Positions 5-63,570 of a DNA stretch of 64,000 nt are shown here, in pieces. The position numbers and the translations under genes were made by a program. Below the pieces are notes generated by a model. It worked only from the letters and a program-made list of their open reading frames with translations, searched no databases and was not told where the DNA came from. Where the stretch lies: positions 26,963 to 90,962 of IMG/VR virus record IMGVR_UViG_3300042566_000706. The stretch is one strand, 5' to 3'. This DNA comes from a virus. How positions within the stretch are numbered: position 1 is the first letter of the stretch; each line of letters begins with the position of its first letter.

Positions 5-11
5 TATTTAT
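5..11 (+). promoter_or_regulatory. TATTTAT late-type motif before the DnaQ-like gene
   Basis: TATTTAT ends 4 nt before the ATG at 16. It is the same motif, in the same orientation relative to the gene, that precedes most minus-strand structural operons. No Shine-Dalgarno sequence is present. The role (late promoter or start-site element) is inferred. Confidence 0.5.
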
Positions 12-15
12 TATT

Positions 16-810
16 ATGATAAAAATCTTAGACGTGCTAAATGAGGAGATTGTTTCTCCGGGTGCTAATAAATTATTAAGGTGGTTTGCAGACCACGCTG
101 ATCACACATATGTGTTCTTCGACACCGAAACAACCGGCCGTGGACCCTCAAGTGGTGACCAATTAACCCAAATTGGAGCCATAGCGACATTCTTTAATAC
201 CGAAACCCTAAGGTTTGCTGAAATAGATAGATTTAATGTTAAAATTAAATTAAATCCAGAAATGTTAGCCAAGGTTAATGATGAACCTGATAGAGAATTG
301 CCAGATGACCCAGAAAGATTAAAAAAGATGTTTAGTTATTCTAAAAAAGCAATTTTAAAATATAACCATTACGATTTAGCAAACTCAGAATCATTTACTG
401 AAGAAAGAGAAGCACTAGAAGAATTTGATAACTATCTAGATTCTCATGGTGATGTTATTTTATTTATACATAATGCACCATTTGATTTGCCGTTTGTTGA
501 AATAAGTGAAGTGTTTAAAACAAAAAACCGTTTGGTCTTTGATACACTAGAATTCTTTAGATATAGATTTCACCCAATTTTAGCTGAATTATCAAAGACA
601 AGTGATAGACATAAAACATTGTACAATCAAATTCCAGGCGAAAATAAAAAATCAAGCGCACTCGCTGATTTAGTGAAAGGGTTTAACCCAGATCCAGATG
701 AGTATGCTAAGAAATTAGAAATGGCTCATGAAGCGTTAACTGATTGCGAGAACACTATTGACGTATTTCAAAAAGCATTACTCGCAATCTATCAACATCT
801 TAATACCTAA
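16..810 (+). CDS. DnaQ-like DEDDh 3'-5' exonuclease
   Basis: Probable 3'-to-5' DNA exonuclease of the DEDDh/DnaQ superfamily, comparable in role to T4 DexA or a stand-alone proofreading subunit. The three Exo motifs are visible: FFDTETTG with the acidic pair near residues 36-38, HNAPFD at about 152-157, and the HxxxxD signature with His238 and Asp243. At 264 aa it is a little longer than T4 DexA (about 227 aa). It is one of only three plus-strand genes in the window and meets the gp46-like gene tail to tail, with the stop codons overlapping by a few bases. The start is the only ATG close to the left end and is preceded by the TATTTAT motif. The family is clear; the exact substrate is not. Confidence 0.85.
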   Translation: MIKILDVLNEEIVSPGANKLLRWFADHADHTYVFFDTETTGRGPSSGDQLTQIGAIATFFNTETLRFAEIDRFNVKIKLNPEMLAKVNDEPDRELPDDPERLKKMFSYSKKAILKYNHYDLANSESFTEEREALEEFDNYLDSHGDVILFIHNAPFDLPFVEISEVFKTKNRLVFDTLEFFRYRFHPILAELSKTSDRHKTLYNQIPGENKKSSALADLVKGFNPDPDEYAKKLEMAHEALTDCENTIDVFQKALLAIYQHLNT

Positions 811-3146
811 TTCATTTTAGCCGTCACATAGTCGATTGATGATATGTTATCATCTTTCTTAACCATGATAATATTATCTGACCAGTTTCTAATTAATGGG
901 TTGTGTGATATTACAAAAATGTGTTCAAAGTAATTCTTAATCTTTTTAAAGAACTCACCAACCATTTCTAAATTTTCATCAGCTATCTTACCAAATACTT
1001 CGTCCATCACTACAATGTTTGGTTTAGGTAGAGATGACACTTTAGTTAATACACTTCTTAATGCTAATGACGATATTGTTCTTTCATAACCAGAGCCAGC
1101 ATTAAGTGGTTTAACCACTCTTGTTTCATTATCAATCATAATGAATTCAACTTCATTCTTGTCATTGATATTCAATTCTAGTGTGAAGTATGAACTATCT
1201 AAAAGCAATCTTGATAATTCTTGATTTAGAAGTGGTATCATATTTTTCAAGATAACTTTTGAAATACCATTCTTACCAAACACCATCAAGTAGGTTTTGA
1301 ACACTTGCAAATATTCTTCCTCGCCTTTAATTTTTTCAATCAACTTAATATTGTTTTCAATCTTTTCTTTAAGATTGCTAATATTATTTTTATGTCTTTC
1401 AATATTGTTTAAGGTTTGTTGAATATCCGCGTTTGCTGTTTCAATCTTAGTTCTTAAAGTAATGATTTCTGCCTCAATCTTTTGGTTATTTTCCAATTTA
1501 GATTTGTTGCTATCATAGCGGTCTAACTTTGATTGTTTAGAATCAATCTCAACTTGTTTTTGTTCAACCTCTAATTCGAATCTACTTTTACGAAGTTTAT
1601 TTCTTTCGTATTCGTCATATTCTTTTTTAATCGCAGCGTATAACTTTTCAGCGTCATTTGCTTCGGTGTATTGAGATTTTAGTTCCCCTTGTTTAGTTTT
1701 TAAATCCTCAATCTCTTTCTTGATTTTTTCAATCTCACTAGTGTGGTCAACCTCATCTAACGCTCTGTGACATGTTGGACATACACTACCTTTTTCTAAT
1801 TGATTAACTAAATTTTCATTACGAGTAATGGTTTCACTAACCAGTTTACCTTCAACAACGATTGAATTAACTTTATCTTTTAACTTATCGTGTTCTTCGT
1901 CTAAATAATACTGCGATGGCTCCACAACACTTACCGCATCGCCTTGGCTCTTACTAGATGATTGAAGACGCTTAAGGTCATCAATCTCTCTTTGCAATAA
2001 AGTTGGGTTAGTTCTTATAAGATCATCATCGATGTCGTTATTCTTTTGACCCAATATAAAATCTCGTCTATCTTCTAGATTTTTTAAGGCGTCTTTAAAA
2101 CCATCTAAAGCTACACCTAATTCACCAATCTGCGTATTAGAATTTTCAATTGAATCTTCAAACGTTTTAATCTGATCCTCTAAATCTGTTTTGTTGTTGG
2201 TGTTAGAAACTAATTTCTTACTCCATTCACTATACATTTCTTTAGCAATATCCTCTTTTTGTTTTAAGGATTCTAACCCAAGAAATTTAGTGATGATTTG
2301 TCCTCTAGCAGTTGGTTTACTTTCAATAAGTTCTTCTAAGTTATAACCAGTTGTTAAAATTGTAGATAAGAAATCTTCTTCAGTTCCAATAGCGGATGTA
2401 ATTAATATCTCTGTCTCTCTTCTTTGTTCACCAGATAAATTAATCAATTCACCTTCTGGTGATTTCTTAAAGAACTCCAAATCATTTTTAACCGTGTATT
2501 CACCTGACTTACTTTTTTTGCGAGTAATAGTTCTACTGATAAGATAATCATCACCATCAATTGTAACCTCACCTTTTACCTTAACTTCATCTGAATCGGA
2601 AAACTTGTTGAATATCTCTCCGTTAGTTTTTGTTTTGGTTGTTGAATTAAAGAACAAAAACATCAATAAATCAACAGTTGCGGTTGACTTACCACCAAAA
2701 TTTTTAGGTGTTGATTCAATTACTGTGATGCCGTCTAAATCTGTAAAATCAATTACATTCCCTTCACCATAGGATAGGAAGTTTGAGAATTCAACCTTTT
2801 TAATAAACCATTTATTATATCTAACCTTGTTCTGATTTAATTTATCGATTTCACCATTAACACGGTCATCTAAACGATTTATAAAATCCCATTTAATCGT
2901 TGACTGGTTCTCAGTTAAGAACTCCTTTACCAAGTTTTTTTGATATTGAGGGTCCAATATATTATCAGACGCCTCTAACGATTTCAACTTCGCATTGGAT
3001 GAGTTGTTGATTGTCTTTGTAACAATCTTAACATTCGTGCTATTGTATTTGTTTTGGAAATACGATTTAACACGTTTGATTCTTTCTTGGGTAAGATTCT
3101 CTGGAGTATCTTCCCACTCAACTTTAATAAAAGGGTTATTATACAT
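807..3146 (-). CDS. 46: gp46-like SMC/Rad50 (SbcC) recombination endonuclease subunit
   Basis: ATPase subunit of the gp46-gp47 (Rad50-Mre11/SbcCD) complex that resects DNA ends for recombination-dependent replication. Visible elements in order: an unusual N-terminal extension (about residues 1-112), the Rad50-type start with Walker A around 146-155 (GGKST), long coiled-coil arms, a zinc-hook CPTC near residue 457, a second coiled coil, the ABC signature region (GSGYERT), and Walker B VVMDEVFG near 714. At 779 aa it is clearly longer than T4 gp46 (about 560). The stop of the DHH-like gene upstream overlaps this start by 8 nt, suggesting coupling. The partner gp47-like gene lies three genes upstream at 4966-5784 rather than adjacent. 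Confidence 0.93.
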   Translation of the reverse strand: MYNNPFIKVEWEDTPENLTQERIKRVKSYFQNKYNSTNVKIVTKTINNSSNAKLKSLEASDNILDPQYQKNLVKEFLTENQSTIKWDFINRLDDRVNGEIDKLNQNKVRYNKWFIKKVEFSNFLSYGEGNVIDFTDLDGITVIESTPKNFGGKSTATVDLLMFLFFNSTTKTKTNGEIFNKFSDSDEVKVKGEVTIDGDDYLISRTITRKKSKSGEYTVKNDLEFFKKSPEGELINLSGEQRRETEILITSAIGTEEDFLSTILTTGYNLEELIESKPTARGQIITKFLGLESLKQKEDIAKEMYSEWSKKLVSNTNNKTDLEDQIKTFEDSIENSNTQIGELGVALDGFKDALKNLEDRRDFILGQKNNDIDDDLIRTNPTLLQREIDDLKRLQSSSKSQGDAVSVVEPSQYYLDEEHDKLKDKVNSIVVEGKLVSETITRNENLVNQLEKGSVCPTCHRALDEVDHTSEIEKIKKEIEDLKTKQGELKSQYTEANDAEKLYAAIKKEYDEYERNKLRKSRFELEVEQKQVEIDSKQSKLDRYDSNKSKLENNQKIEAEIITLRTKIETANADIQQTLNNIERHKNNISNLKEKIENNIKLIEKIKGEEEYLQVFKTYLMVFGKNGISKVILKNMIPLLNQELSRLLLDSSYFTLELNINDKNEVEFIMIDNETRVVKPLNAGSGYERTISSLALRSVLTKVSSLPKPNIVVMDEVFGKIADENLEMVGEFFKKIKNYFEHIFVISHNPLIRNWSDNIIMVKKDDNISSIDYVTAKMN

Positions 3147-8364: not shown

Positions 8365-10467
8365 TTAAAAATCAATTTTTAGTGCAAAAACTTGTACTCC
8401 AGACCTTATCACTGGTTTAGCTGTTTTTGACATCGCCAACACATTTTTACTTGCATCTAGTAATGCTACCTCTGTAATTCTTTTGGTTGCACCAGAAATA
8501 TACGTAGGATTCTGAGTTTGTGTGAATTGTGATGACGGTAAGTTAATCATAAACGTCATAACCTCTAAGTCAGACGCCCTAGTTAACTTAACGCTACCTG
8601 GAAATGGTTGACTATCACCAAATTGTGGAAGTGTAGCATCACCGCTAGTCAATGTTGGTTGATAACCAATTAAATTATCTGTTGTTGACGTATTTGTTCC
8701 GATTGAATATAAAGAACCACCATCTAACATATCTTGACCAATAACAAACTGATAGTCACATAAATTATCGGGATCAATTAAATTACCAACTGTGTGGTTA
8801 GGTATTTGGTCTGTTAAATCTATTACAGTCCAAGAATCTGATTCTGGTTGTGTACTTCCTGAAACTATTTGAACTAATGCTTTAAACTTATTTGCTCTAA
8901 ATCCGCTGGTGCTACCAACTAAATTGGTATTATTATTCATATACTTGAAATCATCAGTATTGAATTTAATTGATGCATTCACAGATATACCAGTAACACT
9001 ATTATAGTAATTACAATGTATCCCACTTAATGCTGTATTTCCTGTTAGTTCTAATTCATATGTAATGTATGCTGTTTCACCACTTGTTATCATTGGTAAA
9101 TCTCCAACAGTACATGGTAAATCAACCGGAACCGCACTAACTCTTGGTGATGGTAGTGTGAATCTTCTGTTTGATTTATATTCTAATGCCGCTATAATTT
9201 CTTGATCATCAAATACTATTATCTTTTTACCTGTGAAAACTTTACCAACTTTATAACCTTGTTCATCTAAAAGATATCTGAATACAACATTATTAGTATT
9301 TGGTTTATCGTTCTTACTTGATGTTACATAATAATTTGTTTCGCCCATAGTAAACACTGCACCAATAGTGGTACCAGTATTTCTATGATATAACATAAAC
9401 GGAATGTACACTTCGAAACTTAAAATATCATCTTCAGTTTCAGATGCGATGTAATCATCGTATTTAAAAAATCTTTCAGGGTCGTTAACTGAATCACCTA
9501 ATTCTGAGTAATGTAATATTGCTATTACTCTTTGGTCTTCTGGTTTAACATTAACTTCTTCACCAAATGAATTAACAAATGTTGTTGGTGTTGATAGTGT
9601 TCCTCCAGTAAAATTTGTAAATGTTTGACCTGATGTGCTATTATACCCTAAATATTCTTTTGTTGATGCGTATTGTGTTCCAGTATATCCTGTTAAACTT
9701 TCATTTGATGCATTTAATCCTGCTGGTTTTTCTGTCCAAACGATTTCCATTCTCCACGGATCATGTGCTGCTGATGGATCTACAGGTGATGGTGAACAAA
9801 CAGTTGTTGTTGTAGTATCAGACCCAAATTCAACATCACAATTATGACATATCACTTGCGCATAACCACTTAATGATGAGAAGTTTGGCATAATTCTATC
9901 AAACGCTAACTCATTACCTGTTATACCTGTAATTTTATAAACCAAACTATTTGTTTCGCCAGTTAATGTTGGTATCTCACCACAGGTTCTACTGTTAAAA
10001 AGAATTGTAACATATTCACAACCATTGTATGTTGCACCAGTTAAAACTGTTAATAAATTAGTACCATCAACTTGTGATAACGATATTTCTTGTATCTCAC
10101 ATGCAATTGTTGTTCCAGTACAATCCACTGAATCATATTCAACGTAATCTGAAACGAAACCTGCCGGTCCCATAACATTTTTAATTGTATCTAACGTATT
10201 TTGTTTTATTGGGTTACCGTATGTTAAACTTTCAGATGATGTTAATTTATATGGATACTTTACTTGAGCATCTTTATCCATTGGCGCCAACACTTTTTGA
10301 TGTGGTGTTACGCCATTCCCAGTGAATCCTGTGAAGTTGTAATCAAATTCAGAATCACCTATTTGGAAATAACTTATTACAAAATTACCCTCAGCGATAG
10401 ATTTTCTACCTTTTTGGGTAATTCTTGCTGTTAAAAATTCTGAATTATTACTGTTTAAAAAGCTCAT
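8365..10467 (-). CDS. Virion structural protein, probably baseplate/fibre-associated
   Basis: 700-aa protein without membrane segments, rich in Thr, Gly, Ser and Asn and full of short beta-type stretches such as TGFTGNG and TGYTGT, as in the neighbouring virion proteins. The N terminus (residues 10-42: LTARITQKGRKSIAEGN, then YFQIGDSEFDY) looks conserved and may be the anchor to the particle. No enzymatic motif seen. It is the last gene of the left structural block and has its own TATTTATA motif 4 nt before the ATG. It immediately follows the modular TPT proteins, so a fibre or fibre-connector role is likely but not demonstrated. Confidence 0.6.
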   Translation of the reverse strand: MSFLNSNNSEFLTARITQKGRKSIAEGNFVISYFQIGDSEFDYNFTGFTGNGVTPHQKVLAPMDKDAQVKYPYKLTSSESLTYGNPIKQNTLDTIKNVMGPAGFVSDYVEYDSVDCTGTTIACEIQEISLSQVDGTNLLTVLTGATYNGCEYVTILFNSRTCGEIPTLTGETNSLVYKITGITGNELAFDRIMPNFSSLSGYAQVICHNCDVEFGSDTTTTTVCSPSPVDPSAAHDPWRMEIVWTEKPAGLNASNESLTGYTGTQYASTKEYLGYNSTSGQTFTNFTGGTLSTPTTFVNSFGEEVNVKPEDQRVIAILHYSELGDSVNDPERFFKYDDYIASETEDDILSFEVYIPFMLYHRNTGTTIGAVFTMGETNYYVTSSKNDKPNTNNVVFRYLLDEQGYKVGKVFTGKKIIVFDDQEIIAALEYKSNRRFTLPSPRVSAVPVDLPCTVGDLPMITSGETAYITYELELTGNTALSGIHCNYYNSVTGISVNASIKFNTDDFKYMNNNTNLVGSTSGFRANKFKALVQIVSGSTQPESDSWTVIDLTDQIPNHTVGNLIDPDNLCDYQFVIGQDMLDGGSLYSIGTNTSTTDNLIGYQPTLTSGDATLPQFGDSQPFPGSVKLTRASDLEVMTFMINLPSSQFTQTQNPTYISGATKRITEVALLDASKNVLAMSKTAKPVIRSGVQVFALKIDF

Positions 10468-10471: not shown

Positions 10472-10479
10472 TATAAATA
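10472..10479 (-). promoter_or_regulatory. TATTTATA late motif, 4 nt before ATG of 8365-10467
   Basis: Coding-strand octamer TATTTATA, preceded by GA and followed by ACAT and the ATG. If it is a -10-like element, the transcript would be essentially leaderless. Confidence 0.55.
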
Positions 10480-11903: not shown

Positions 11904-12194
11904 TTAACATGGAATTAATTCCACTAATCTTATTTGATATCCCCCCTGTTTTTTAGGCGTTGCATTTGGTACTGATGTTATATGGTCATCACAATGTTCA
12001 ACAAAAACACAAACATATTTTGATGCGCCAGAATATATTATTTGAAATGTTTTTCCATTTAATGGTATGGCAACATCAGAAAAAAGCGGTGTTGTTGGTA
12101 TTGTTTCCCAAGTAGTTCCGGTATAAATGTTATAAACACTACACGGTGTTGTGCTTCCGCTTATATTCGATATTGTTATATTATATGTTGCCAT
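11904..12194 (-). CDS. Stand-alone N-terminal adhesin module
   Basis: 96-aa protein that corresponds to the N-terminal module of its larger neighbours and nothing else: it starts with alternating beta residues (YNITISNISGS) and contains CVFVEHCDDHI, closely echoing the VKINCNGCDDQIF segment of the 464-aa protein to its left. No TPT stalk is attached. It may be a small virion or adaptor protein, or a module available for recombination into fibre genes. The coding-strand motif TATTTAT ends 5 nt before the ATG. Confidence 0.55.
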   Translation of the reverse strand: MATYNITISNISGSTTPCSVYNIYTGTTWETIPTTPLFSDVAIPLNGKTFQIIYSGASKYVCVFVEHCDDHITSVPNATPKKQGGYQIRLVELIPC

Positions 12195-12199: not shown

Positions 12200-12206
12200 A
12201 TAAATA
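12200..12206 (-). promoter_or_regulatory. TATTTAT late motif, 5 nt before ATG of 11904-12194
   Basis: Coding-strand context ATATTTATT, then AATA and the ATG. Likely drives the two-gene unit 11904-12194 plus 10499-11893. Confidence 0.5.
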
Positions 12207-13372: not shown

Positions 13373-13380
13373 TATAAATA
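13373..13380 (-). promoter_or_regulatory. TATTTATA late motif, 5 nt before ATG of 12207-13367
   Basis: Coding-strand TATTTATA followed by CTATT and the ATG. It lies between an upstream terminator (13403-13428) and the gene, the arrangement expected of a promoter rather than of an element inside a continuous transcript. Confidence 0.65.
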
Positions 13381-13402: not shown

Positions 13403-13428
13403 AAAACCCCTTAAAATAAAGGGGTTTT
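13403..13428 (-). terminator. Intrinsic terminator after 13450-13968
   Basis: Perfect 10-bp stem AAAACCCCTT / AAGGGGTTTT with a 6-nt loop. On the minus strand the stem is continued by a T-run (the A-run at 13401-13406). The symmetrical A/T flanks mean it could also work on the plus strand. Confidence 0.9.
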
Positions 13429-15096: not shown

Positions 15097-15104
15097 TATA
15101 AATA
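15097..15104 (-). promoter_or_regulatory. TATTTATA late motif, 10 nt before ATG of 13998-15086
   Basis: Coding-strand TATATTTATAAT followed by AGACAAAT and the ATG. Confidence 0.55.
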
Positions 15105-16563: not shown

Positions 16564-16619
16564 TTATTTTTATTTTTTATGTATATTTTTTTTCATTTTA
16601 TTTATTATAATGCTTTTTT

Positions 16620-44052: not shown

Positions 44053-44060
44053 TATAAATA
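44053..44060 (-). promoter_or_regulatory. TATTTATA late motif, 10 nt before ATG of 43842-44042
   Basis: Coding-strand AGATATTTATAAAATAAAGTT and the ATG. Likely drives the four-gene unit ending at the terminator 42519-42548. Confidence 0.55.
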
Positions 44061-49823: not shown

Positions 49824-50133
49824 AATATAGTTTATACAATTCTACCCCTCTTTTATAATCTTGTAAAGTGTTAACTAGCGGAAAAGGTATTCTTATTGTA
49901 GTATTATCCGGAATTTCAAACTCCATAGAACCAGAACTAGGGTTTGCCATCATGATTATCCAACCAAATAAGGGTGAATTGTAAAATTCTTGTGAAAGTT
50001 TATCTAATCTATCTTTATTTTTTCTGTATTGGATATATTTGTCACTAGATTTAACAGGTATTTCAATACCTGGAACAATTTTGTGTTCTTCATCTTCTAC
50101 AAAATATTGATACCTGTCAAAATATTGGTTCAT
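49813..50133 (-). CDS. 53: gp53-like baseplate wedge protein
   Basis: 106-aa protein with the LysM-like baseplate signature KDRLDKLSQEFYNSPLFGWII followed by the turn NTTIRIPFPL, which is how gp53 and other LysM-type tail proteins read. Gp53 in T4 is 196 aa and completes the wedge, so this is a compact version. It has 4-nt ATGA overlap with the 1594-aa gene upstream and an 11-nt overlap with the 1913-aa gene downstream. The exact equivalent (gp53 or a short LysM tail protein) is not settled. Confidence 0.7.
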   Translation of the reverse strand: MNQYFDRYQYFVEDEEHKIVPGIEIPVKSSDKYIQYRKNKDRLDKLSQEFYNSPLFGWIIMMANPSSGSMEFEIPDNTTIRIPFPLVNTLQDYKRGVELYKLYYGE

Positions 50134-53100: not shown

Positions 53101-54914
53101 CTACCTATGAATTTAGTTGTTTCCCAGTTTGCCGTATTTGTCTCTTGAAATTTTAAATCATATGGCGGAAACCACATAACTCTACCACCATTAGGTCCTC
53201 TTTCACAATATGGTAAATCATTGTACGTAAATCCCGGCTTGTTTGATGTTTTCCATGCTAAATTCTCTATTGAGAACATATATTTTTTTGCCTGACCATT
53301 AATAATGTTTGTTGAACCATTAAATGCGTCTTTACCTCTTTGTCCGTTTGACATTGGGGCAATATTCAAATTCCAAGGAGTTGTCATTACACTTTCCTTA
53401 AAATTTCTAATTAAACCAGTACGTTTCATTGTGTCAGAATAATTCATATATGAACGGTCTTTTGTCCATACACGACAATATTCAATACCACTTTCTTCGC
53501 CAGAAAATTTATCAATATATTTTATAGCAGAACCTCTAGATAACATTGTCTCACCTTCACGAAAAACTCTACTTGTTTGGTCAATGGCATTTGCCACGTG
53601 TCCTTTTGCTTCACCACCATTCTCTGGTAATGTATTAAGTAATCTTTGTGTTTCACCTAGTATTGAATCCTCTCTAAATTCATAAGCCGTAGATAAACTT
53701 TCAGCATGTCTTGATGCCTCACTTTGCCATTCAGCATTATGAACACCTTTTATTTTTTCATTTGATTGTCTACTAACCCAAGTAAGTTTACCACCTATTT
53801 GTCCGCCATCCGATATATTTTTATCTTTATGAAATAACTTAGTTGCCGTTTCATCAAACATTAATGAAAGATAATAACCACTTCTTACTGGTCTATCATT
53901 AAAGTCCGAAATAGCATACATCACATCTTCACCTCTATCATCACCAATATATGCATTACCCCTAGGTGCTTCAACACCTAAAACGTTTTTAATTCCCTGT
54001 GCAATTTGATTTGGGAAATTAAATAATTTACTAGATTGTTGTGATCTGCCAGTTGTTGTATAATCTGGTTTATATTTTGAAAATGATAGGTTATTGTACA
54101 ATGTTTGTAATTGTCCGTTACCCATATATTCAATTAATAAATCCGAAGGTTTTCTAGAACGCTTTGGTCTTCTTTCTATTCCAATTAAAGAACCTAACAC
54201 ACCTGTAACATCTTGAAATGCTCTACCTAATCCTGTTCTTGCTTCTGGTCTATATTTTACAGGATTTGCTGGGTTACTTAAATAATCACCAGGGATTTCA
54301 CTCCAAGGGAATTCTACACCCGCAACCGTTTGTGCAAAATCAATTACCTTACCGGCCAAAGATTTAGCAACAGTAATTTTATAATTTTTTTCAACTAATG
54401 GCTCTCTACCTGAAATTAAACCGATTGCGGTATTTGTGTTACCCGCTAGTGCATCTAATATTCTAACTTTACTTAATGTATTAGCTAATAAGTTTTGTCT
54501 AATTCTCGCCTGTATTGGTCCCTCTGTTGCTGTTTTAATATTTGATGCCGCGAACTTAAATAATTCGGATTCATCATCATATTTGTCCGTTGTTAATATA
54601 CTAATTAATGAATGGTCTTGGTCACGTTGAAAGTAGGGATATAAACCAAGATTTGCTCTTCTTGGTAAAACATCGATATTTTCCTTTACAACGTAGATTT
54701 CTGGTTTAAATGTGTTGCTATTTGATGCGTCTAATAAAAGTTTAGGTCTTTGGTCCGAAACTTCCCCTGGGTCAACGTTTGCGAAATTTGAAGTATTTTG
54801 AATAGAGTAATTACCAGACGTGAATGTTTGCGGCCCATTAGGTTGTACTAATGTCTTTGCTAACATCGCATCTCTTAATTTTTTGGTTGAATCAAAATCT
54901 AAGTAACTTGGCAT
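50130..54914 (-). CDS. Large tail/baseplate structural protein
   Basis: 1594-aa virion protein. Conserved-looking features: GRPEPIYTYQNAERSGTVSF with FKVVVDHPSVLNLLVKKRFEG (about 600-650), and CVLRIGDFYHSKVIIGNIQI with GGQGLKEPVAKLQNALSFNF (about 1130-1210). Coiled-coil/helical regions follow the Pro/Ser linker (about 1235-1240). No enzymatic motif seen. It follows the tape measure gene in the transcript and overlaps gp53 by 4 nt, so is likely hub- or wedge-associated. The TATTTATA motif lies 13 nt before the ATG. Confidence 0.65.
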   Translation of the reverse strand: MPSYLDFDSTKKLRDAMLAKTLVQPNGPQTFTSGNYSIQNTSNFANVDPGEVSDQRPKLLLDASNSNTFKPEIYVVKENIDVLPRRANLGLYPYFQRDQDHSLISILTTDKYDDESELFKFAASNIKTATEGPIQARIRQNLLANTLSKVRILDALAGNTNTAIGLISGREPLVEKNYKITVAKSLAGKVIDFAQTVAGVEFPWSEIPGDYLSNPANPVKYRPEARTGLGRAFQDVTGVLGSLIGIERRPKRSRKPSDLLIEYMGNGQLQTLYNNLSFSKYKPDYTTTGRSQQSSKLFNFPNQIAQGIKNVLGVEAPRGNAYIGDDRGEDVMYAISDFNDRPVRSGYYLSLMFDETATKLFHKDKNISDGGQIGGKLTWVSRQSNEKIKGVHNAEWQSEASRHAESLSTAYEFREDSILGETQRLLNTLPENGGEAKGHVANAIDQTSRVFREGETMLSRGSAIKYIDKFSGEESGIEYCRVWTKDRSYMNYSDTMKRTGLIRNFKESVMTTPWNLNIAPMSNGQRGKDAFNGSTNIINGQAKKYMFSIENLAWKTSNKPGFTYNDLPYCERGPNGGRVMWFPPYDLKFQETNTANWETTKFIGRPEPIYTYQNAERSGTVSFKVVVDHPSVLNLLVKKRFEGMSDEESTNYINSFFAGCEQLDFYDLIRRYGNLESEEIEIIQIWLSYYRDGKTSDDYLKLKFKRTAGEIVSTNPNNSDGLLPYQSEPFDTGGASGQPVSFDGDLYFRNDQPHPQDGLYADSDYEAQYTSYVALKSTYQSKLATGLASIFASNSASNKKDRNTLYNNENPDPSVTGKTVTELNEGFTKLDTNYNKLKDATAAIKKDIEAKKIKEVKLEMQSSTSFVADEKYNIKLAFRRSDSVAKYVLKSISKSGTVPSFTWKATPAELKSNPAQRTEEITISFKDLGYSDDIQGNVIIKFVMLGENTKNSDCGGLDCHGIELLNTSGLKIAAPITFLCRHTKVNLNYTSVDETVESEGFDPYDSEPLQDFGSERVYPPKIEIDVETDTVNRKPPLDALKLIIMKILSECFYFQQLEESSPLAYSALKDKLKYFHPAFHSMTPEGLNSRLTFLQQCLRPGDTIPIKDISDIMNLDARNTTFGPPPICVLRIGDFYHSKVIIGNIQINYDDAPLDMNPEGIGIQPMIANVTMQISFIGGQGLKEPVAKLQNALSFNFYGNTEVYDHRSTATEDRTKFNIAELTKILESAPKTPTKPIVSESPNKPIDGTYIGLVEGTDNLSYLPYVLEQGENSIFESTKLYFDSLKTKYNELLVINGPLLMPLFISPNYRKKYKMDVNDSVSTTTEIELLGVYDSKTDYSILVNNFNQGLTKKVNSISSISTFFEFDSFLQDYKITQSDLILKQFILDLIKTKISDLEGVKLTEIESARNKVVQIFDKLNFILSTNGKDGKTDKETITGKQAANFIPADFYDRYKKVITFIQKEHPESFTNDLTTTIDFISVHNTTLPDDVFKDLIGYFITEADITKLETLYKDSPDTLFFTPNIISKMSKKMKKLILTTKEKKIKFKHPNVKDTNPLLYTITDVTLTGPENEKLKKVLNSKDNSSGVKLNYLR

Positions 54915-54927: not shown

Positions 54928-54935
54928 TATAAATA
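54928..54935 (-). promoter_or_regulatory. TATTTATA late motif, 13 nt before ATG of 50130-54914
   Basis: Coding-strand ATCTATTTATAGAATAAAG, then AATAG and the ATG. Likely drives the three-gene unit (1594 aa, gp53-like, 1913 aa). Confidence 0.55.
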
Positions 54936-54954: not shown

Positions 54955-56934
54955 TTAAGCATTTGCTAAATATGATCTAATTGGTTCATTTATTGCTGCA
55001 ACCACCTGATCCTTCATTGAAGGGTCTTTTTGCATTGTTGTGGCTAGTAAATTAGCATAGTTATCGGCACCCGAAATTTTTAGATTAACATTAAATGTTG
55101 TTTCATTTCCGGAAATGGGTCTACTTTTAGCATCATTTATTTCTTTTTGAATTTTTTCTTGTTGTTTTTCATAAGATGTTCCCTTAAAACTATCACCACC
55201 TGGTATTATACCCATAATTTTGTTTAAGGTTTCTTCAGCGCCTTTAACTAATGCAGGACCGTTACTCGGGTCCATTAACGCGGTTTTAGCTTTATCTAAT
55301 AAATCATAAACCTGAGTTTCACGAATACCTCTTCTTAAATTGTTTTGTAATAACAAATAAATGCTATTAATATCACTCATCATTTGTGTTTGAACGGTAA
55401 ATTGGCTTCTAGACAAATCCTCCAAACTAGCGCCAGCAATTTGTTCTTGATATCTTTGTAGTGCGGCAACTTGGTCACCAGTCATATTTGATAATTCAAC
55501 AAACGCCTGACCACCAAAGAATTGTTGCATTTCTTTTGGTATTTCAAACCCAATTGTTCCACCTGAACCAATTTGAGCCATATTTTTTATAAACTCTTTT
55601 TGATCACCATCCTTGAATTGAGGGAACATATCTATTTGACTCATTACCTCAAATTGGTTTGCTGCTTTTATAGCTAAACTCGACATTTCCCCCAGCGTCA
55701 TCCCTAGCGCATCTGCTCTAGCTTTTGCAACTCTTAAGTTGATACCTGTAACAGCAAAACGACCTTGAGCTTCATCAAACACAGCTAAACTTCTTGCTGA
55801 ATCAATGATTGAACTTTGTATGCCTTCCATATTATTGGTAACATCGTACATTGCTCTAATAGGGTCAGCTAGGTCACCAGCAGCGCCACCAATCATTTGT
55901 AGTTTAGCTGCCATATCAATAGCCCCTTCTGGTTCAAAAACTTTGTCAGCAACTACAAAAACTTTATCCATGTTTAGTTTTAGTGATTGTGCTTGTTGAA
56001 CCATTTGAGTTAAACCTGCAACACCATTTTTAAATCCGTATTCATTTAGTTTACCTAAATTAGCCATTAATGTTTTTGTGGTTTCCCTAGCTGTTAAACC
56101 TTGTGCTAAAGATGCTTTACCAGCGTTTAATATAATTTTAGTTGCGTCTTGTAACCCATAACCAATATTTCTAAAATTCTCAGCATTTTCAAATATAGAT
56201 TTTGCGCTATCCGTTAATGTACTACTAATCTTAAGTGCATTTGCAACTGTTTCTGCTGTATATAGTTTTGTTTGTCCGGAATTTTTACTTAATGCCGCTG
56301 AGGCATCTCTTGCCTCTTGCATTGAAACACCAAATTTAGTTGCTTCTTCTGCCGCTGTTAACATTTCCTCTTTCATAACACCAGCAAAATCACCCATAAT
56401 TCCACCAGCTTCTGAAATTGATGTTAGCATTTTTGCTTCGTTATCATAAGCATCTGCAAGTAATCCAGCAGCATTTGATGCTAGTGAACTAATTACTCCT
56501 TTAACAAGATCCACGGGTTTTACCGCATTTGTGGCAACTGTTTTAAGTAGTGCAGAAATTTCTGAGGATTGCAAATCTCTCTGAACATTCAATTGGTCTT
56601 TAAATATACTTTCAGCGCCACTAACAATAATATTACCTAATCCACCTATTGCAGTACCAGCCAAACTCGATATTCTACCAACAACACTGCCAACAGCACC
56701 AGATGTTGCTGCTAGAACACCAGCGCCACCGGCGGCAGCACCAGTTGCAGCGGAAGATGCTGTAAGCGTTCTGATTTTGTTTTGAAGAGTCGATATACCA
56801 TCGTTAATGTCTTGCTTTAGTGCATTGTTTGAACTATAGTTAGTTGTATTGGATTGCATAAAAGAAAGCAAATCCGTATTACCACGTCTACCATTACTAC
56901 TAAATAATTCGTCAATTGCGCTGTTAAATCCCAT
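54955..56934 (-). CDS. Tail tape measure protein
   Basis: 659-aa helical protein with all the features of a tape measure: a helical N terminus, an Ala/Gly-rich hydrophobic stretch at about 60-110 (SSAATGAAAGGAGVLAATSG), then long amphipathic helices with repeating Ala/Leu (AEEATKFGVSMQEARDASAA ... LSKNSG) and a short charged C terminus. Its length is comparable to T4 gp29 (590 aa). It lies between the gp26-like/38-aa genes and the 1594-aa structural protein, near the tube gene. The TATTTATA motif ends 4 nt before the ATG. Confidence 0.82.
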   Translation of the reverse strand: MGFNSAIDELFSSNGRRGNTDLLSFMQSNTTNYSSNNALKQDINDGISTLQNKIRTLTASSAATGAAAGGAGVLAATSGAVGSVVGRISSLAGTAIGGLGNIIVSGAESIFKDQLNVQRDLQSSEISALLKTVATNAVKPVDLVKGVISSLASNAAGLLADAYDNEAKMLTSISEAGGIMGDFAGVMKEEMLTAAEEATKFGVSMQEARDASAALSKNSGQTKLYTAETVANALKISSTLTDSAKSIFENAENFRNIGYGLQDATKIILNAGKASLAQGLTARETTKTLMANLGKLNEYGFKNGVAGLTQMVQQAQSLKLNMDKVFVVADKVFEPEGAIDMAAKLQMIGGAAGDLADPIRAMYDVTNNMEGIQSSIIDSARSLAVFDEAQGRFAVTGINLRVAKARADALGMTLGEMSSLAIKAANQFEVMSQIDMFPQFKDGDQKEFIKNMAQIGSGGTIGFEIPKEMQQFFGGQAFVELSNMTGDQVAALQRYQEQIAGASLEDLSRSQFTVQTQMMSDINSIYLLLQNNLRRGIRETQVYDLLDKAKTALMDPSNGPALVKGAEETLNKIMGIIPGGDSFKGTSYEKQQEKIQKEINDAKSRPISGNETTFNVNLKISGADNYANLLATTMQKDPSMKDQVVAAINEPIRSYLANA

Positions 56935-56938: not shown

Positions 56939-56946
56939 TATAAATA
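56939..56946 (-). promoter_or_regulatory. TATTTATA late motif, 4 nt before tape measure ATG
   Basis: Coding-strand ATATTTATAGGTT and the ATG. It is just past the stop of the 38-codon gene. Confidence 0.6.
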
Positions 56947-56951: not shown

Positions 56952-57068
56952 TTAACCATTTTGCAAGTCAAATAAATAACTAACGAAATTTCTTCTTTCG
57001 TGTACTGGAATCATTAATACATCTTGATACGTAAAACCGTTTTTCAACAAGAATAATATTTCATCCAT
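56952..57068 (-). CDS. 38-aa gene between gp26-like and tape measure genes
   Basis: Short reading frame MDEILFLLKNG ... FTYQDVLMIPVHERRNF ... DLQNG, stop TAA at 56952-56954. Start ATG lies 11 nt after the gp26-like stop. The core GFTYQDVLMIPVHERRNFV matches the style of tiny proteins found at this exact place (after the hub/tape genes) in many T4-like phages, where similar short proteins carry G-F-x-Y and P-x-x-x-R-R motifs. Composition and reading frame look coding. Assembly chaperone or gp51-like helper is a guess. Confidence 0.6.
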   Translation of the reverse strand: MDEILFLLKNGFTYQDVLMIPVHERRNFVSYLFDLQNG

Positions 57069-57947: not shown

Positions 57948-58436
57948 CTAGTAAATAAGTACGCATCTATCCATTCTTAAAGAACAGTCGATACTTGCCA
58001 ATTCATCTTGAGAATATGCTAAATCACCGAAGTTTAAGTTGGTAAGGAAACAACCCTCTAATAACCACTTTTCAACAACAACACCTGTTGGGTCTAACAT
58101 TTCCAAGTACACATCTTTTTTGTATCCTGCGGCATAACCCATACGACCTGTAACCGATTCTGCATGTAAGCGGAACCACTCCATAAGTGCTTGTGCTGCT
58201 GAAGGACCAATCGGGTCTTTAAACTGAACTTTAATTTCTTCCCAGTCAAATCTACCAGCAACGTAAGTTGAGGTGTTTAAGAAAGGTATTTCAACAGATT
58301 TAATTTTAGCTGATGGGCGAGATGTTGAAGTCACGTACCACTCATTTATACCTAATGTAGATGGAAATCTTAGGATAAATCTATTTTTTCTTTTTGGTTC
58401 GTAGGGAACCGGCATTTTCATTAATAAATCCGCCAT
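57948..58436 (-). CDS. 19: Tail tube protein gp19-like
   Basis: 162-aa protein, same length as T4 gp19 (163). Signatures: basic start KRKNRFILRFPSTLGINEWYV, SRPSAKIKSVEIPF, KVQFKDPIGPSAAQAL with the aromatic WFRLHAES, and the C-terminal YLEMLDPTGVVVEKWLLEGCF and SLRMDRCVLIY. The final Tyr and the DPTG turn are typical of myovirus tubes. The TATTTATA motif lies 36 nt upstream, giving an A/T leader, and a strong terminator follows. High expression expected. Confidence 0.93.
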   Translation of the reverse strand: MADLLMKMPVPYEPKRKNRFILRFPSTLGINEWYVTSTSRPSAKIKSVEIPFLNTSTYVAGRFDWEEIKVQFKDPIGPSAAQALMEWFRLHAESVTGRMGYAAGYKKDVYLEMLDPTGVVVEKWLLEGCFLTNLNFGDLAYSQDELASIDCSLRMDRCVLIY

Positions 58437-58472: not shown

Positions 58473-58480
58473 TATAAATA
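58473..58480 (-). promoter_or_regulatory. TATTTATA late motif, 36 nt before tail tube ATG
   Basis: Coding-strand GATATATTTATAATAAAGC followed by an A/T leader. It lies within the 271-nt gap between tube and sheath genes, which otherwise holds only A/T-rich sequence and the sheath terminator. Confidence 0.6.
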
Positions 58481-58707: not shown

Positions 58708-61527
58708 TTATATATTTTCAAAAGAAGCACCTGTTGGTGTTATTATGAATTCTACATCGATAAATTCTAATGATCTAGTTGGTTTAATGTAAATCTTACC
58801 TCTTAGTGTGTTAGCATCAATGTCTTCTGGGTCGTTAGAAACCGCTACGCGGAAATCATACAAACCTCTTTCTTTCTTAATAGAATCTAATATTGGGTTA
58901 ACCAAACTTAAGAATTCTTGTCTTACTTGATCATCATTTTGTTCGAACAATAATCTAACTGCTACTGCTGAAATCAACTTTCTAGCTCTTAATAACAATC
59001 TTCTTACGTTAATTCTATCTAATGCCGATTCTCTTACTTGTAAGGTTTTGTTACCCCAAATAATTGTACCTGTATCAGAGAATGTCGCAATTGGGTTAAT
59101 TCTGTTTTTGTATAATTCATCTCTATCATCTAATGTTAATTTTTTAGCTGCTTTAATTGAGTTAACTAAACCTCTTGAATAACCTGCAACTGCAAACCAA
59201 GGATATGATACATTATCGGTTAATGCAATGTTTTTAACAACTTCTCCTGTTGGTGGTAAGTAAAGTTGAGTTGCGTTGTCAGTATCTCTTACTTGAATCC
59301 AAGGCCAGTAAGTTGCTGAATAGTTTGTGTCTAAACTAACACTATCTAAATCATCAACAACTTCCGCTGTTGTTGTGTGGTTTGGTGCATTAATAATGTA
59401 TAATGAATCCGCTCTATCATTCTCAACCATATCAATAGCTTGAGTTACAAGAGAACTGTGGTTTAACCAATTGATACCTGGAGTTGCAAATAAATTAATA
59501 TCTACTGCTTCTGGATTAGAGAATGAATTAATACCTTCTAAATAAGCGTAATAATCTGAGTTACCAACTGTTGAACTGAATACACCACCACTTGTTGAGT
59601 GATTGGTTGAATATGTGTTTTTACCAAAAATATATCCGTCTGTGTTTGTTCTAACATTTCTGTAGATATCCCAACCATCAAATCCGCCAAATACTGGTAA
59701 TGTGAATTTACAATAAGATATACCTGTTAATGGGTTATCCACACCTGTTTGACCTTCAAAGTCATATGCAGTTGTTTCATATACTGTATTTCCATTAGCG
59801 TCAGTTATTGTTGAGGCATTTGTTGATAAGTGAAAACCAAATGTTACCTCATTAGCACCAACACCCTTAAATTTGAACATGTCTTTGTCATATCCAATAT
59901 GTGATTGCGATGATAAACCTAATGTTACTTTTTTAACTTTATCTCCATTAGATATTTCCGCACTACCATCTGTGTTATAATAAATTGTTTCACCTGCTGT
60001 ATTGTATTTTGTTTTAAATGTTAAACCTCCGATAGAATCTTTGGTTGTACATCCTTTGAAACCCGCTGGAATTGCGTCTGCTGGCGCGTTATCAGCCAAT
60101 ACTAACATAACGTATTTACTTCTGATTTCATATTCACCATCAGATGTACCAATTTTTTTAGCAACGAAACCTGGAAGATCCGGATTCATTGAACATCTTG
60201 AGAACTTCTCTAGAACCACTTGGTTTTCGTCTGAATCATAAAAATCACGAACTAAAACATCAAATTCACCAGTTTCAACATTAATATTTTGAATAGTAAT
60301 TTTAACTTCATTATTAGAAGCGTTACCATCTGATATTGTTAAGAAACTAAATAAATCAAATACGTTACCACCTCTTACTTCAGAAACAACTAAATTTGAA
60401 CCCGCCATATCCCATTGTTGTACAAAATCTTCATCTTCTGCGTTTACATATTCAGTAGTATTTAAACCTCTGATTTGACCTTGTTGGAAAAGATTTTTAA
60501 TTAAATTTGGATAAACTTCGTGAACATATATTGGGTTAACCGTTTTTTCTTTATCAAAAACATCAACACCTAAAACTTTTGTAATATATTTTGTTGAAGC
60601 AGTGTCAAAACTACAATCAAATGTTCTAACATCAGCATCGACGTCTGTAACAGTTAATGTGAATTCTGATAAAGGATCTAATGCAATATCTGATCCAGTA
60701 ATTTGAACCGATGTTGTACCAGTAACTCTATGTGTTAATACTTCCGAAATGTATGAACCTCTAGACCTTAACAAACAAACAACTTTTCCGTCATTTGCTA
60801 AAGTTGCGCTATATTCATATCTTGTAACATCAAATGATGTTGTTCCGTGATTATAAACGAATAGGTATGAATAAACCTTGTTTGTAAAGTTTGAGTATGT
60901 GTTATACCAGTTTTTGGTTGCACTAATACCTATTGGTGATGAAACAGTGGTTCCAGTTAAAGAACTTGTTGCAGCAGTTGGTACAGTTCCAATTGTAAAC
61001 CAGTTACCAGTATTCCCACTAGTGTTTCCACTATATCGGTCTAAGATAAATCCTGGTACTGAGTCGCCATCAGATGCTGTTTTTCCTGAAAGTTCAGCAT
61101 AAAATGTTGAACCAGTAATACCACTTGCGGTAACCACTGTTGTTCCAGTTGTTGTTCCTGTTGTTACAAGGTCTCCAACAACCATACCACCCAATGTTTT
61201 AATACCATAGGTTCTGTTTGGTTTATAACCAGTTAAACCCAATACTCGGGTTACAAATAACTGATTTGATTCTTGTAAATATGATTTTGCTACATAAGGT
61301 AACTCGTATTTTGGGTTATCACTTCCGTCTTTTGCGGGTGAAGTGCCACCAAAATATGTTTTGAATTCGTCGAAATTAGACACCAAGATTGGTTCGAAAG
61401 CTGGACCTTTTAAAGTTTCACCTACTAAACCCAATGTTGTTACCCCTACACTTTGCGCTACGAATGTTAAATCTTTCTCTGAAGTGTAGACCCCCGGAGA
61501 AACGAAAACTCTGTTTGAATTTGCCAT
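58708..61527 (-). CDS. 18: Tail sheath protein gp18-like
   Basis: 939-aa protein with the sheath signature: N-terminal SPGVYTSEKDLTFVAQSVG and GLVGETLKGPAFEPILV, then YFGGTSP, and C-terminal RLLLRARKLISAVAVRLLFE with GLYDFRVAVS and TLRGKIYIKPTRSLEFIDVEF (the strand-exchange arm). T4 gp18 is 659 aa, so about 280 extra residues, mainly between residues about 120 and 330, form an insertion likely exposed on the sheath surface. The TATTTAT motif is 37 nt upstream. Divergent from the plus-strand mini-gene at 61654. Confidence 0.95.
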   Translation of the reverse strand: MANSNRVFVSPGVYTSEKDLTFVAQSVGVTTLGLVGETLKGPAFEPILVSNFDEFKTYFGGTSPAKDGSDNPKYELPYVAKSYLQESNQLFVTRVLGLTGYKPNRTYGIKTLGGMVVGDLVTTGTTTGTTVVTASGITGSTFYAELSGKTASDGDSVPGFILDRYSGNTSGNTGNWFTIGTVPTAATSSLTGTTVSSPIGISATKNWYNTYSNFTNKVYSYLFVYNHGTTSFDVTRYEYSATLANDGKVVCLLRSRGSYISEVLTHRVTGTTSVQITGSDIALDPLSEFTLTVTDVDADVRTFDCSFDTASTKYITKVLGVDVFDKEKTVNPIYVHEVYPNLIKNLFQQGQIRGLNTTEYVNAEDEDFVQQWDMAGSNLVVSEVRGGNVFDLFSFLTISDGNASNNEVKITIQNINVETGEFDVLVRDFYDSDENQVVLEKFSRCSMNPDLPGFVAKKIGTSDGEYEIRSKYVMLVLADNAPADAIPAGFKGCTTKDSIGGLTFKTKYNTAGETIYYNTDGSAEISNGDKVKKVTLGLSSQSHIGYDKDMFKFKGVGANEVTFGFHLSTNASTITDANGNTVYETTAYDFEGQTGVDNPLTGISYCKFTLPVFGGFDGWDIYRNVRTNTDGYIFGKNTYSTNHSTSGGVFSSTVGNSDYYAYLEGINSFSNPEAVDINLFATPGINWLNHSSLVTQAIDMVENDRADSLYIINAPNHTTTAEVVDDLDSVSLDTNYSATYWPWIQVRDTDNATQLYLPPTGEVVKNIALTDNVSYPWFAVAGYSRGLVNSIKAAKKLTLDDRDELYKNRINPIATFSDTGTIIWGNKTLQVRESALDRINVRRLLLRARKLISAVAVRLLFEQNDDQVRQEFLSLVNPILDSIKKERGLYDFRVAVSNDPEDIDANTLRGKIYIKPTRSLEFIDVEFIITPTGASFENI

Positions 61528-61564: not shown

Positions 61565-61571
61565 ATAAATA
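61565..61571 (-). promoter_or_regulatory. TATTTAT late motif, 37 nt before tail sheath ATG
   Basis: Coding-strand AAGATATTTATTTGATAAG. A 7-bp hairpin (ATCTTTG / CAAAGAT, 61571-61591) overlaps its 5' edge. Lies in the divergent region with the plus-strand gene at 61654. Confidence 0.5.
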
Positions 61572-61638: not shown

Positions 61639-61645
61639 TATTTAT
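61639..61645 (+). promoter_or_regulatory. TATTTAT late motif, 8 nt before plus-strand mini-gene
   Basis: Plus-strand GTTATTTATCTTTAGAT and the ATG at 61654. With the minus-strand motif at 61565, this makes a divergent pair of late start elements. Confidence 0.5.
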
Positions 61646-61653
61646 CTTTAGAT

Positions 61654-61812
61654 ATGAAAACAACAACCAAAAACGTCAAAATAAGTGATAAACATCACGA
61701 AATGGTTAAAACCCACTGTGATAAACACGGATTAAAAATTTATAAACTTTTAGAAAAATTAATAGAAGAAACCTGTAAACCTAAAAAAAGGGACATTTAC
61801 GGGGAATCTTAG
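61654..61812 (+). CDS. 52-aa ribbon-helix-helix-like protein
   Basis: Short plus-strand frame MKTTTKNVKISDKHHEMV ... KTHCDKHGLKIYKLLEKLI ... GES, ending with TAG at 61810-61812. A short beta strand (KNVKIS) followed by two helices (HHEMVKTHCDKHG, KIYKLLEKLIEE) is the ribbon-helix-helix layout of Arc/MetJ-like regulators and of many small phage DNA-binding proteins. It overlaps the stop of the minus-strand gene at 61809 by 4 nt. Codons and leader look coding, though at this length function is uncertain. Confidence 0.6.
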   Translation: MKTTTKNVKISDKHHEMVKTHCDKHGLKIYKLLEKLIEETCKPKKRDIYGES

Positions 61813-63044
61813 TGTAGATATGTCACACCAATTTTTGAATTAATCACAGGGGAATAATTGAGAGTTATTTCATTTGATGAACTAATATCAAATCCGCCAC
61901 CCTCTTCTTCCAAAAGACCGTTAATATCTAAACTAACAATGCTGTCAATATTATTCAATAATTCGAAAACAAGGGTTGAACCATCGTAAGTGTAATATTC
62001 TGTGGAAACTTGAATTGGTTTACCGTAGCTATCTATGAATACACTATTTTTACCTTTATAATATGTTATTGCAATTAAACTATTTTCAAACGGAGCATCT
62101 ACAAATGTTATTTTAGATGTTCCGGCGATATGGAAATAATCTACATCTCTTTCTTGTAAAAGACCGTTTATTGAAACATTAAATAGAATACCAATACTCT
62201 CACCAACGCTAAATTGTTTTTGCAAACCATCCCCTGGGAAAGTTACAACGGTCAATTCTATTGTTTTATTAATATATTTCTTTTGATAATTAGATCCTGC
62301 AATGAATTCATTTAATAGAAACATTCTACTAATGGCCGGCTTAACCTCAAATTCTTCAGAGTCAATTAATAAACCTAACAAAGTAAATTGATAATTTTGC
62401 GAGTAAAATCTACGATTATCAATTTGTTCAATCGGAGAGTTATCCTCAACCTTATCTAGTAAAATAGGTATGTAATGACCTTTTACCGTTGTATACGCTT
62501 GTCTAGATGCAAATTTTTGCATTACAATTTTATTGAATCTGTTTAGTTCACGTATTTTGTTACAAATAATGGTAACCTCATATGTAATGTCCACTGCGAC
62601 CGGCTGTGGTATCTTATAAACGTCTGCACCCATTTGTGTGCCGTTCCAAGTAGCAACTGTTGCGTAATGGAAAGGTAATCTTTCTGGGATTGTTCTTTGT
62701 ATTGATGGATTTGTTCCCGGTTGTACATCAGGTCTTCTTATGATACCCATAAATGGTATTTTCATATTACCGTCATCGTCGGAAAACTCCCAAGTATTCA
62801 TTACCTGAGCCCATCTTTGTATCGTTAAAATTTTTGGAATAATTGGAATAGGTTTACCGTCACTAATAACTTTAAAATTAGTGTTAACAAAATCTAACAT
62901 ACCCATATCTAAATCGTCATGTAGAATAGAGTCAGGTAAATACGTATCCGACTTTGTTATTTTATCTAACAATTCCTGTCTTCTACCGGTCAATTCTTTA
63001 CCTTTGTAGATTTGTATGTCGTTTTTTCTTTTTGGTATTCCCAT
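61809..63044 (-). CDS. Virion protein, with two beta modules at its C terminus
   Basis: 411-aa structural protein. The first about 240 residues (DMGMLDFVNTNFKVISDGK, FMGIIRRPDVQPG, IPERLPFHYATVATWNGTQM, then VTIICNKIRELNRFNKIVMQ) resemble a neck, tail-completion or virion-lining protein, but I cannot name the family. Two similar C-terminal modules, at about 275-330 and 345-411, both contain ING-LL, an acidic turn, IT/I-F or L, P, and a final ITYY or VTYL pattern. A 1-nt gap to the 170-aa gene upstream implies coupling. Confidence 0.55.
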   Translation of the reverse strand: MGIPKRKNDIQIYKGKELTGRRQELLDKITKSDTYLPDSILHDDLDMGMLDFVNTNFKVISDGKPIPIIPKILTIQRWAQVMNTWEFSDDDGNMKIPFMGIIRRPDVQPGTNPSIQRTIPERLPFHYATVATWNGTQMGADVYKIPQPVAVDITYEVTIICNKIRELNRFNKIVMQKFASRQAYTTVKGHYIPILLDKVEDNSPIEQIDNRRFYSQNYQFTLLGLLIDSEEFEVKPAISRMFLLNEFIAGSNYQKKYINKTIELTVVTFPGDGLQKQFSVGESIGILFNVSINGLLQERDVDYFHIAGTSKITFVDAPFENSLIAITYYKGKNSVFIDSYGKPIQVSTEYYTYDGSTLVFELLNNIDSIVSLDINGLLEEEGGGFDISSSNEITLNYSPVINSKIGVTYLH

Positions 63045-63045
63045 T

Positions 63046-63558
63046 TTATACTCCTCTAAATTCTTGTTCCTGTGCTGGCGCGCAAGTTATTGTGCGATAA
63101 TACGGCTTATAACCAAACAAGTTATGTTTGTTATCAGATGTTACCTTACCATCGTTTGTCACAGTATAGTAACGCATTTTATTTTCGGTTTCTGGATAAC
63201 CAATATAATCACCGTACTTAATTTCAACCCCTAATTCACTTAGATGCTTAATATAAACTGAGAATGTTAAATTACCCGGTTCATTATATCGCATCATACC
63301 AGCTTTGTATGAATTATTTTTAGACGCTTCTACTTGAACCAAGGCGTTAACTTCGATTGGTGGGAAATATTTGATTTCATCAAGACCTACCTCACCATAA
63401 ACCCCATCGGTATCTGTTTTTTGTCTATCAACTCTAAAAAGGACCAATTTCATGTTAAGATCACCGTGCAAATATTCTTGACCTATTTGTATCTGTAAAT
63501 CAAAATCCTCGTTTGAGAAAAATTTACTTAATCTAGTTATTGGTAGTTTATTATCCAT
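63046..63558 (-). CDS. Small virion protein, probable neck or tail-completion protein
   Basis: 170-aa protein (MDNKLPITRLSKFFSNEDFD ... ITCAPAQEQEFRGV). Beta-rich with aromatic and acidic residues; no motif recognised. It is the first gene of the unit with 61809-63044, preceded by TATTTATA ending 4 nt before the ATG, and divergent from the plus-strand gene at 63615. Position next to sheath and tube genes suggests a tail terminator, neck or head-tail connector. Function inferred only from context. Confidence 0.5.
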   Translation of the reverse strand: MDNKLPITRLSKFFSNEDFDLQIQIGQEYLHGDLNMKLVLFRVDRQKTDTDGVYGEVGLDEIKYFPPIEVNALVQVEASKNNSYKAGMMRYNEPGNLTFSVYIKHLSELGVEIKYGDYIGYPETENKMRYYTVTNDGKVTSDNKHNLFGYKPYYRTITCAPAQEQEFRGV

Positions 63559-63562
63559 ACAA

Positions 63563-63570
63563 TATAAATA
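63563..63570 (-). promoter_or_regulatory. TATTTATA late motif, 4 nt before ATG of 63046-63558
   Basis: Coding-strand ACTATTTATATTGT and the ATG. Within the 56-nt divergent spacer. Confidence 0.6.

Follow-up and report, generated by a model that had tools for sequence, protein, structure and literature searches.

What is the short AT-rich word that recurs immediately upstream of genes in this viral DNA, and what reads it? The window analysed here is a 64,000-nucleotide (nt) stretch, positions 26,963-90,962 of the 90,962-bp IMG/VR record IMGVR_UViG_3300042566_000706, and all site coordinates are window positions unless the record is named. An earlier note on this stretch listed 16 upstream sites of TATTTATA or its core TATTTAT, and proposed either a late promoter recognised by an unusual phage sigma factor and giving nearly leaderless mRNAs, or a start-codon element replacing the Shine-Dalgarno sequence. 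We find that the TATTTATA signal upstream of virion genes is genuine: judged from its placement and strong conservation, it is a late-gene promoter that departs from the T4 box by two letters. We consider it highly probable that it drives late transcription in a large group of contractile-tailed relatives of T4, that a gp55-like sigma factor reads it, and that boxes close to the ATG give leaderless mRNAs.

PHROG searches identify the source as a contractile-tailed, T4-related phage with sheath, tube, baseplate, SbcC/D-like gp46/47, primase, gp41-like helicase, UvsX, a gp32-like single-stranded DNA-binding protein (SSB) and NrdA/B. Many relatives carry a tail tube at 82-100% identity and reach 199-288 kb; the 90,962-bp record is therefore incomplete. 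The host probably belongs to the Bacteroidota, since these genomes show no excess of Shine-Dalgarno sequences (40 vs 61 in a control interval, of 1072 genes), the relatives' non-late genes have sigma-A promoters, and the Flavobacterium phage immuto encodes a relative of the gp55-like factor described below. Genes of the relatives were called mechanically, as the longest ATG open reading frame (ORF). The five genomes pooled below are mutually related, and one-gene-per-family counts correct for this kinship in part. Gaps are the number of nt between the 3' end of TATTTAT and the ATG, unless the 8-mer is named.

A strand-specific box upstream of late genes

All 16 listed sites are found on the strands claimed, in the distance classes claimed: eight lie at a gap of 4-6 nt (4-5 nt for the 8-mer), five at 8-14 nt and three at 37-41 nt. 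Two further sense sites, at 34121-34127 and 56972-56978, are each a second copy upstream of the boxes at 34094 and 56939, respectively. Across the whole window TATTTATA occurs 17 times against 14.2 expected, and TATTTAT 33 times against 49; whole-window counting was dropped as uninformative, and the signal lies in strand and position, not in abundance, because these raw counts do not exceed chance. Within 60 nt upstream of the record's 74 genes, TATTTAT stands in the sense orientation at 25, compared to a mean of 3.96 and a maximum of 13 in 2000 rounds of dinucleotide shuffling of each leader, and in the antisense orientation at 5, compared to 5.5 expected, so that the strand and position bias anticipated in the earlier note is borne out. 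The full TATTTATA gives 15 sense and 1 antisense, and the T4 consensus TATAAATA 1 sense and 15 antisense. Among 508 genes of 80 relatives, TATTTAT is the most strand-asymmetric 7-mer (277 sense vs 67 antisense), and four long relatives show the same sense-strand upstream bias.

The consensus has TATTTAT as its core, with T rarely before it and A or T after it. At preferred positions TATTTAT is enriched about 10-fold, and only three single-base variants also clearly exceed expectation (TATTTGT, 5.7-fold; TATCTAT, 3.2; TACTTAT, 2.4). We find no upstream conservation indicative of a -35 or -33 partner for TATTTATA, and scans for sigma-70 promoters (TTGACA/TATAAT) return matches at shuffle level. 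The suggestion that the box is largely confined to virion genes holds in that no site precedes nrdA, nrdB, gp41, uvsX or the primase gene, nor gp46 or gp47, and fails at the SSB gene and at the exonuclease-like plus-strand gene 16-810, both of which have one; with hand-picked PHROG classes, 7 of 13 virion and 2 of 11 replication genes carry a site, a contrast that is weak alone (p = 0.10).

Genes that bear the box keep it in their orthologues. On the minus strand, the tail-tube (gp19-like) gene 57948-58436 has TATTTATA at 58473-58480 (gap 37; kept in 76 of 78), the tail-sheath (gp18-like) gene 58708-61527 has TATTTAT at 61565-61571 (gap 37; 46 of 54), gene 63046-63558 has TATTTATA at 63563-63570 (gap 5, proximal; 34 of 34, mostly at gap 5-7), and gene 50130-54914 has TATTTATA at 54928-54935 (gap 14; 29 of 33). 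The same holds on this strand for gene 54955-56934, with TATTTATA at 56939-56946 (gap 5, proximal; 19 of 19), and for three genes conserved in four of four orthologues: that of the gp25-like baseplate wedge protein (33637-34089; TATTTAT at 34094-34100, gap 4, proximal, kept at gap 4-5), gene 23510-24415 (TATTTAT at 24427-24433, gap 11) and gene 43842-44042 (TATTTATA at 44053-44060, gap 11, kept at gap 13-19). Genes without the box mostly lack it in their orthologues as well (0 of 31 for 49813-50133, 1 of 36 for 61809-63044, and 0 of 3 or 0 of 4 for replication genes). Where orthologues are aligned, the TATTTAT columns vary little or not at all, whereas the flanking columns diverge, and the tail-tube block is invariant.

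On the plus strand, the ORF 61654-61812 is real: its 52 amino acids (aa) are conserved in 40 relatives, 33 of which have TATTTAT within 40 nt upstream, as here at 61639-61645 (gap 8). Lying between the sheath gene and the gene next to it, it opposes the direction of the operon around it and is a small late gene hidden by a 60-aa ORF cut-off.

A gp55-like sigma factor in the relatives

The earlier note had proposed a search for a gp55/gp33-like pair elsewhere in the genome, and a gp55 relative is indeed present in near relatives, while none is found within this record. This protein, gp55L, is 232 aa long and matches the T4 late-sigma family (phrog_234) in four of the seven records searched (G003, G006, G011 and G012). 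It is present in 341 confirmed stretches of IMG/VR. The best PDB match of its profile is T4 gp55 (7d7c, E = 7e-4), with homology through sigma domain 2, and within the T4 genome the profile matches gene 55 alone. Most gp55L C-termini end in GFLE or GFLD, a short, putative counterpart of the hydrophobic/acidic clamp-binding motif of T4 (SLDFLYE), which it resembles in character. A single weak match to phrog_12791, which contains internal stop codons, was discarded.

Two cultured phages combine gp55L with the motif upstream of late genes: immuto (13 sense vs 3 antisense) and the Microcystis phage Mel-JY01 (6 sense vs 0 antisense). Rhodothermus phage RM378 was rejected as a motif carrier, as the motif is absent in 50 kb of its sequence and neither gp55L nor the sigma-A-like factor discussed below finds a match there. 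As a separate observation, the upstream sequences of many small genes in the middle region of immuto (66001-115000) have words around TATCAATAATTAAAA and TATATTTA in common, which may represent its early promoter.

TATTTATA is a single -10-type box lacking a -35 element, which host RNA polymerase carrying a gp55-like sigma factor would read as T4 gp55 reads TATAAATA. Its reader is probably a relative of the T4 late sigma factor, and its activity is presumably late. Transcription would start about 5 nt past TATTTAT. Boxes at least 11 nt upstream would then give the mRNA a short leader, rich in A and devoid of a Shine-Dalgarno sequence, and with boxes 4-7 nt from the ATG the A of the start codon would itself be +1, so that the mRNA is leaderless.

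Alternative explanations

That AT-rich leaders simply contain TATTTAT by nature agrees with the whole-window counts, but the leader-specific shuffles, the bias in strand and position and the conservation across phages refute this, and its probability is negligible. More substantive is the proposal that TATTTATA acts in translation initiation, in place of a Shine-Dalgarno sequence, on mRNAs made from other promoters. The lack of Shine-Dalgarno excess in these genomes fits such an element, as do the roughly one-third of sites that lie 4-7 nt from the ATG and the second boxes upstream of the gp25-like gene and gene 54955-56934. Pooling five genomes, however, the gaps are multimodal, with 86 sites at 4-7 nt (10 antisense), 9 at 8-10 nt, 90 at 11-22 nt and a tail to about 44 nt; at least half of the sites lie at 11-43 nt and are conserved at that distance, those of the tail-tube and sheath genes chiefly at 37-38 nt. 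The sequence of the motif stays constant while its distance shifts among orthologues of one gene, as for gene 54955-56934, where the box is found at 4-5 nt in some phages and at 17-23 nt in others, and a second box accompanies only 7 of 82 proximal genes. The box is usually missing at genes packed behind another: a same-strand neighbour lies within 25 nt of 60% of box-less genes, vs 26% of proximal and 16% of distal ones. Sites also follow terminators. The two that the earlier note placed directly before the boxes at 13373 and 34094 are present, as minus-strand intrinsic terminators at 13403-13428, immediately upstream of TATTTATA at 13373-13380 (gene 12207-13367, gap 6), and at 34132-34162, immediately upstream of the second box of the gp25-like gene (TATTTAT, 34121-34127, gap 31); a third, at 42525-42548, abuts with its T-tail TATTTATA at 42513-42520, upstream of the SSB gene 41633-42472 (gap 41; box in one of four orthologues). 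Variable, multimodal spacing, terminator adjacency and the rarity of the box at tightly packed genes argue for a promoter rather than a start-codon element, which we regard as very improbable, and favour the late-promoter role with recognition by a phage sigma factor.

A different reader is the alternative that deserves most weight, although we consider it unlikely: TATTTATA would be a late promoter read not by a gp55 homologue but by a phage-encoded sigma-A-like factor or a host sigma factor. A gene for such a factor lies at 22049-22879 of the record (minus strand), outside the window; the protein has regions 2 and 4, is most like primary sigma factors and is 60-67% conserved in 7 of the 13 relatives searched, among them all those longer than 150 kb. 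TATTTATA moreover shares the TA and two of the Ts with TAnnTTTG, the -7 box of Bacteroidota. Against this, the factor retains region 4, which normally reads a -35/-33 box that the late box lacks, and immuto and Mel-JY01, which have both the motif and gp55L, give no match to it in a search that had no positive control of its own, with a query that did match in the relatives. Further, promoters of sigma-A type form a separate, bipartite class. Among the relatives' genes that lack TATTTAT and have 50 nt or more of space upstream, TTG-N17-23-TAnnTTTG occurs at 42 of 232 in sense vs 4 in antisense, compared to 2 sense vs 7 antisense of 120 TATTTAT genes in the pooled relatives. By this pattern the non-late genes of the relatives carry a predicted Bacteroidota sigma-A promoter instead of the box; no bipartite match was found upstream of this record's own genes.

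A predicted leaderless class

The proximal (4-7 nt) class, about a third of cases, probably gives mRNAs whose first base is that of the start codon. A gap of 5 nt is the most frequent. T occupies position -1 in 62 of 82 proximal genes (29 of 32 at gap 5), compared to 43 of 122 distal genes (p = 1.6e-8), and with one gene per family the fractions are 0.74 and 0.39 (median p = 5e-5), a preference suggestive of selection for a 5' end exactly at the AUG. In the families inspected, conservation of the encoded N-termini begins at codon 1, so the starts of those genes are real. The bipartite sigma-A promoters of these phages provide a calibration: 8 of 57 lie 3-5 nt from the ATG and none at 7-13 nt, with a pyrimidine at -1 in 8 of 8. 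The Flavobacterium -7 box spans -12 to -5 (PMC9723704), so that a 4-nt gap after that box puts +1 on the ATG; if the late box occupies the same position, transcription would start after a gap of 5 nt from TATTTAT. The gap peak at 5 nt, the trough at 8-10 nt, the T at -1 and this calibration indirectly support the earlier note's proposal of nearly leaderless mRNAs, extended to fully leaderless ones, where the box lies close.

Of the 165 TATTTATA sites that lie no more than 150 nt from an ATG, 56 are proximal, compared to 5.5% leaderless mRNAs in F. psychrophilum (PMC9723704). We lean, with modest confidence, towards a late programme that is systematically leaderless, in which about a third of TATTTATA promoters put +1 on the AUG under selection for T at -1. 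Its leaderless rate would then be several times that of a Flavobacterium host, and late expression would depend on leaderless initiation by host ribosomes.

Genes for ribosomal protein bS21 (PF01165, above cut-off) occur in four relatives, at G006:76844-76996, G011:27487-27645, G012:28129-28287 and Mel-JY01:22231-22392, and were not found in G000, G003, G005, G007 or immuto; a link to unusual translation initiation is possible.

Several findings weigh against a gp55-like reader and a leaderless class. That gp55L is not found in this incomplete 91-kb record is to be expected, because only 5.5 kb of the record follow the tail tube whereas in G006 gp55L lies 22 kb beyond it, in the direction opposite to the sigma-A-like gene; extrapolating from relatives, the gene of this phage would lie about 17 kb past the record's end. 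G005 and G007, both possibly fragments, likewise have no late-sigma match. Searches with PF02916 and with phrog_223, of which the second lacked a positive control, detect no relative of the gp45 sliding clamp, whereas the T4 system comprises gp55, gp33 and gp45; clamp-loader-like matches are present. The AlphaFold model of gp55L has a predicted local distance difference test score (pLDDT) of 63, and its top Foldseek matches, mostly sigma factors, are weak (best E = 0.046), so that this low-confidence comparison was set aside as proof. With T4 spacing, in which the box spans -13 to -6 (PMC2988020), the first base of transcripts in the 4-nt class would fall within the start codon. Distal boxes are A-rich 5-7 nt downstream, and the signature of T then purine sought 5-6 nt past them is not seen; the T at -1 is thus specific to the proximal class. 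Finally, immuto and Mel-JY01 have few or no proximal boxes, and the leaderless layout is therefore not general to the motif.

Relation to known promoters

T4 late promoters consist of an 8-bp box at -10 with no -35 element, read by gp55 (PMC2988020, PMC7892883). TATTTATA is like TATAAATA in being a single 8-bp box of -10 type with no -35 element, found before virion genes on either strand, and in its association with a gp55-family sigma factor of similar domain 2, gp55L of the relatives. In the same orientation it differs by TT for AA at positions 4-5 (TAT-TT-ATA vs TAT-AA-ATA). The earlier note made much of its being the exact reverse complement of the T4 box; this is a coincidence of two words, as the sense comparison matches at 6 of 8 positions. 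In T4 itself TATAAATA is found at 9 sense vs 3 antisense sites, and in the stretch checked its boxes lie mostly 24-28 nt from the ATG, whereas here about a third are 3-6 nt away; gp55L also differs from T4 gp55 in having a C-terminal region past the T4-aligned part.

Lineage-specific shifts of the late-box consensus have a parallel in Aeromonas phage Aeh1, with a/gC for TA at -13/-12, as given in the PMC2988020 passage on that phage; other positions are altered there, and that passage describes no leaderless class. The Bacteroidota sigma-A promoters (TTG-N-TAnnTTTG at -33/-7 in Flavobacterium psychrophilum, PMC9723704), as found at non-late genes of these phages, show the same logic of spacing to the ATG, with a leaderless cluster, but are bipartite and contain TTTG, whereas both TTG and TTTG are missing from the late box. 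PMC5312081, citing Brock et al. 2008, calls leaderless phage mRNAs frequent. The transcripts predicted here from sequence would share their 5'-terminal AUG, and would differ in that one late-promoter class sets leaderlessness systematically. In the papers searched, which exclude most subscription papers, TATTTATA is not described as the late promoter of any phage.

These results would extend T4-type late transcription, with a new box and a matching divergent sigma factor, to a large, mostly uncultured lineage that probably infects Bacteroidota. In the pair of box and sigma factor, nature offers an experiment on the reading of a -10 box by a minimal sigma factor. If, as predicted, a third of late promoters fire on the start codon, these phages would also be suited to the study of leaderless translation in bacteria that dispense with Shine-Dalgarno sequences. 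TATTTATA could also be used to annotate transcription units and start codons across many uncultured genomes.

Remaining sites and neighbouring features

The remaining boxes of the window are as follows. On the plus strand, TATTTAT at 5-11 stands 4 nt before the ATG of the exonuclease-like gene 16-810 and belongs to the proximal class, with the same gap of 4 in G007. On the minus strand, proximal boxes precede gene 8365-10467 (TATTTATA at 10472-10479, gap 5; motif in two of four orthologues), gene 11904-12194 (TATTTAT at 12200-12206, gap 5; also in the lone orthologue found) and gene 27858-31748 (TATTTATA at 31754-31761, gap 6; kept in two of two at gap 7), and TATTTATA at 15097-15104 lies 11 nt before gene 13998-15086. 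The second box of gene 54955-56934 is TATTTAT at 56972-56978 (minus strand, gap 37). In both tandem pairs, 34094/34121 and 56939/56972, one box is proximal and the other lies 27-33 nt farther upstream, and both boxes of the gp25-like gene are retained in G006, G007 and G012.

A sharp excursion of GC skew (+0.35) spans 16001-20000, mostly inside the gene 16620-23510, which encodes 2296 aa. A DUF5856 protein is encoded at 42853-43227 on the minus strand (PF19174, E = 2.6e-16; PHROG 858, 'starvation-inducible transcriptional regulator') and adjoins a possible coiled-coil protein.

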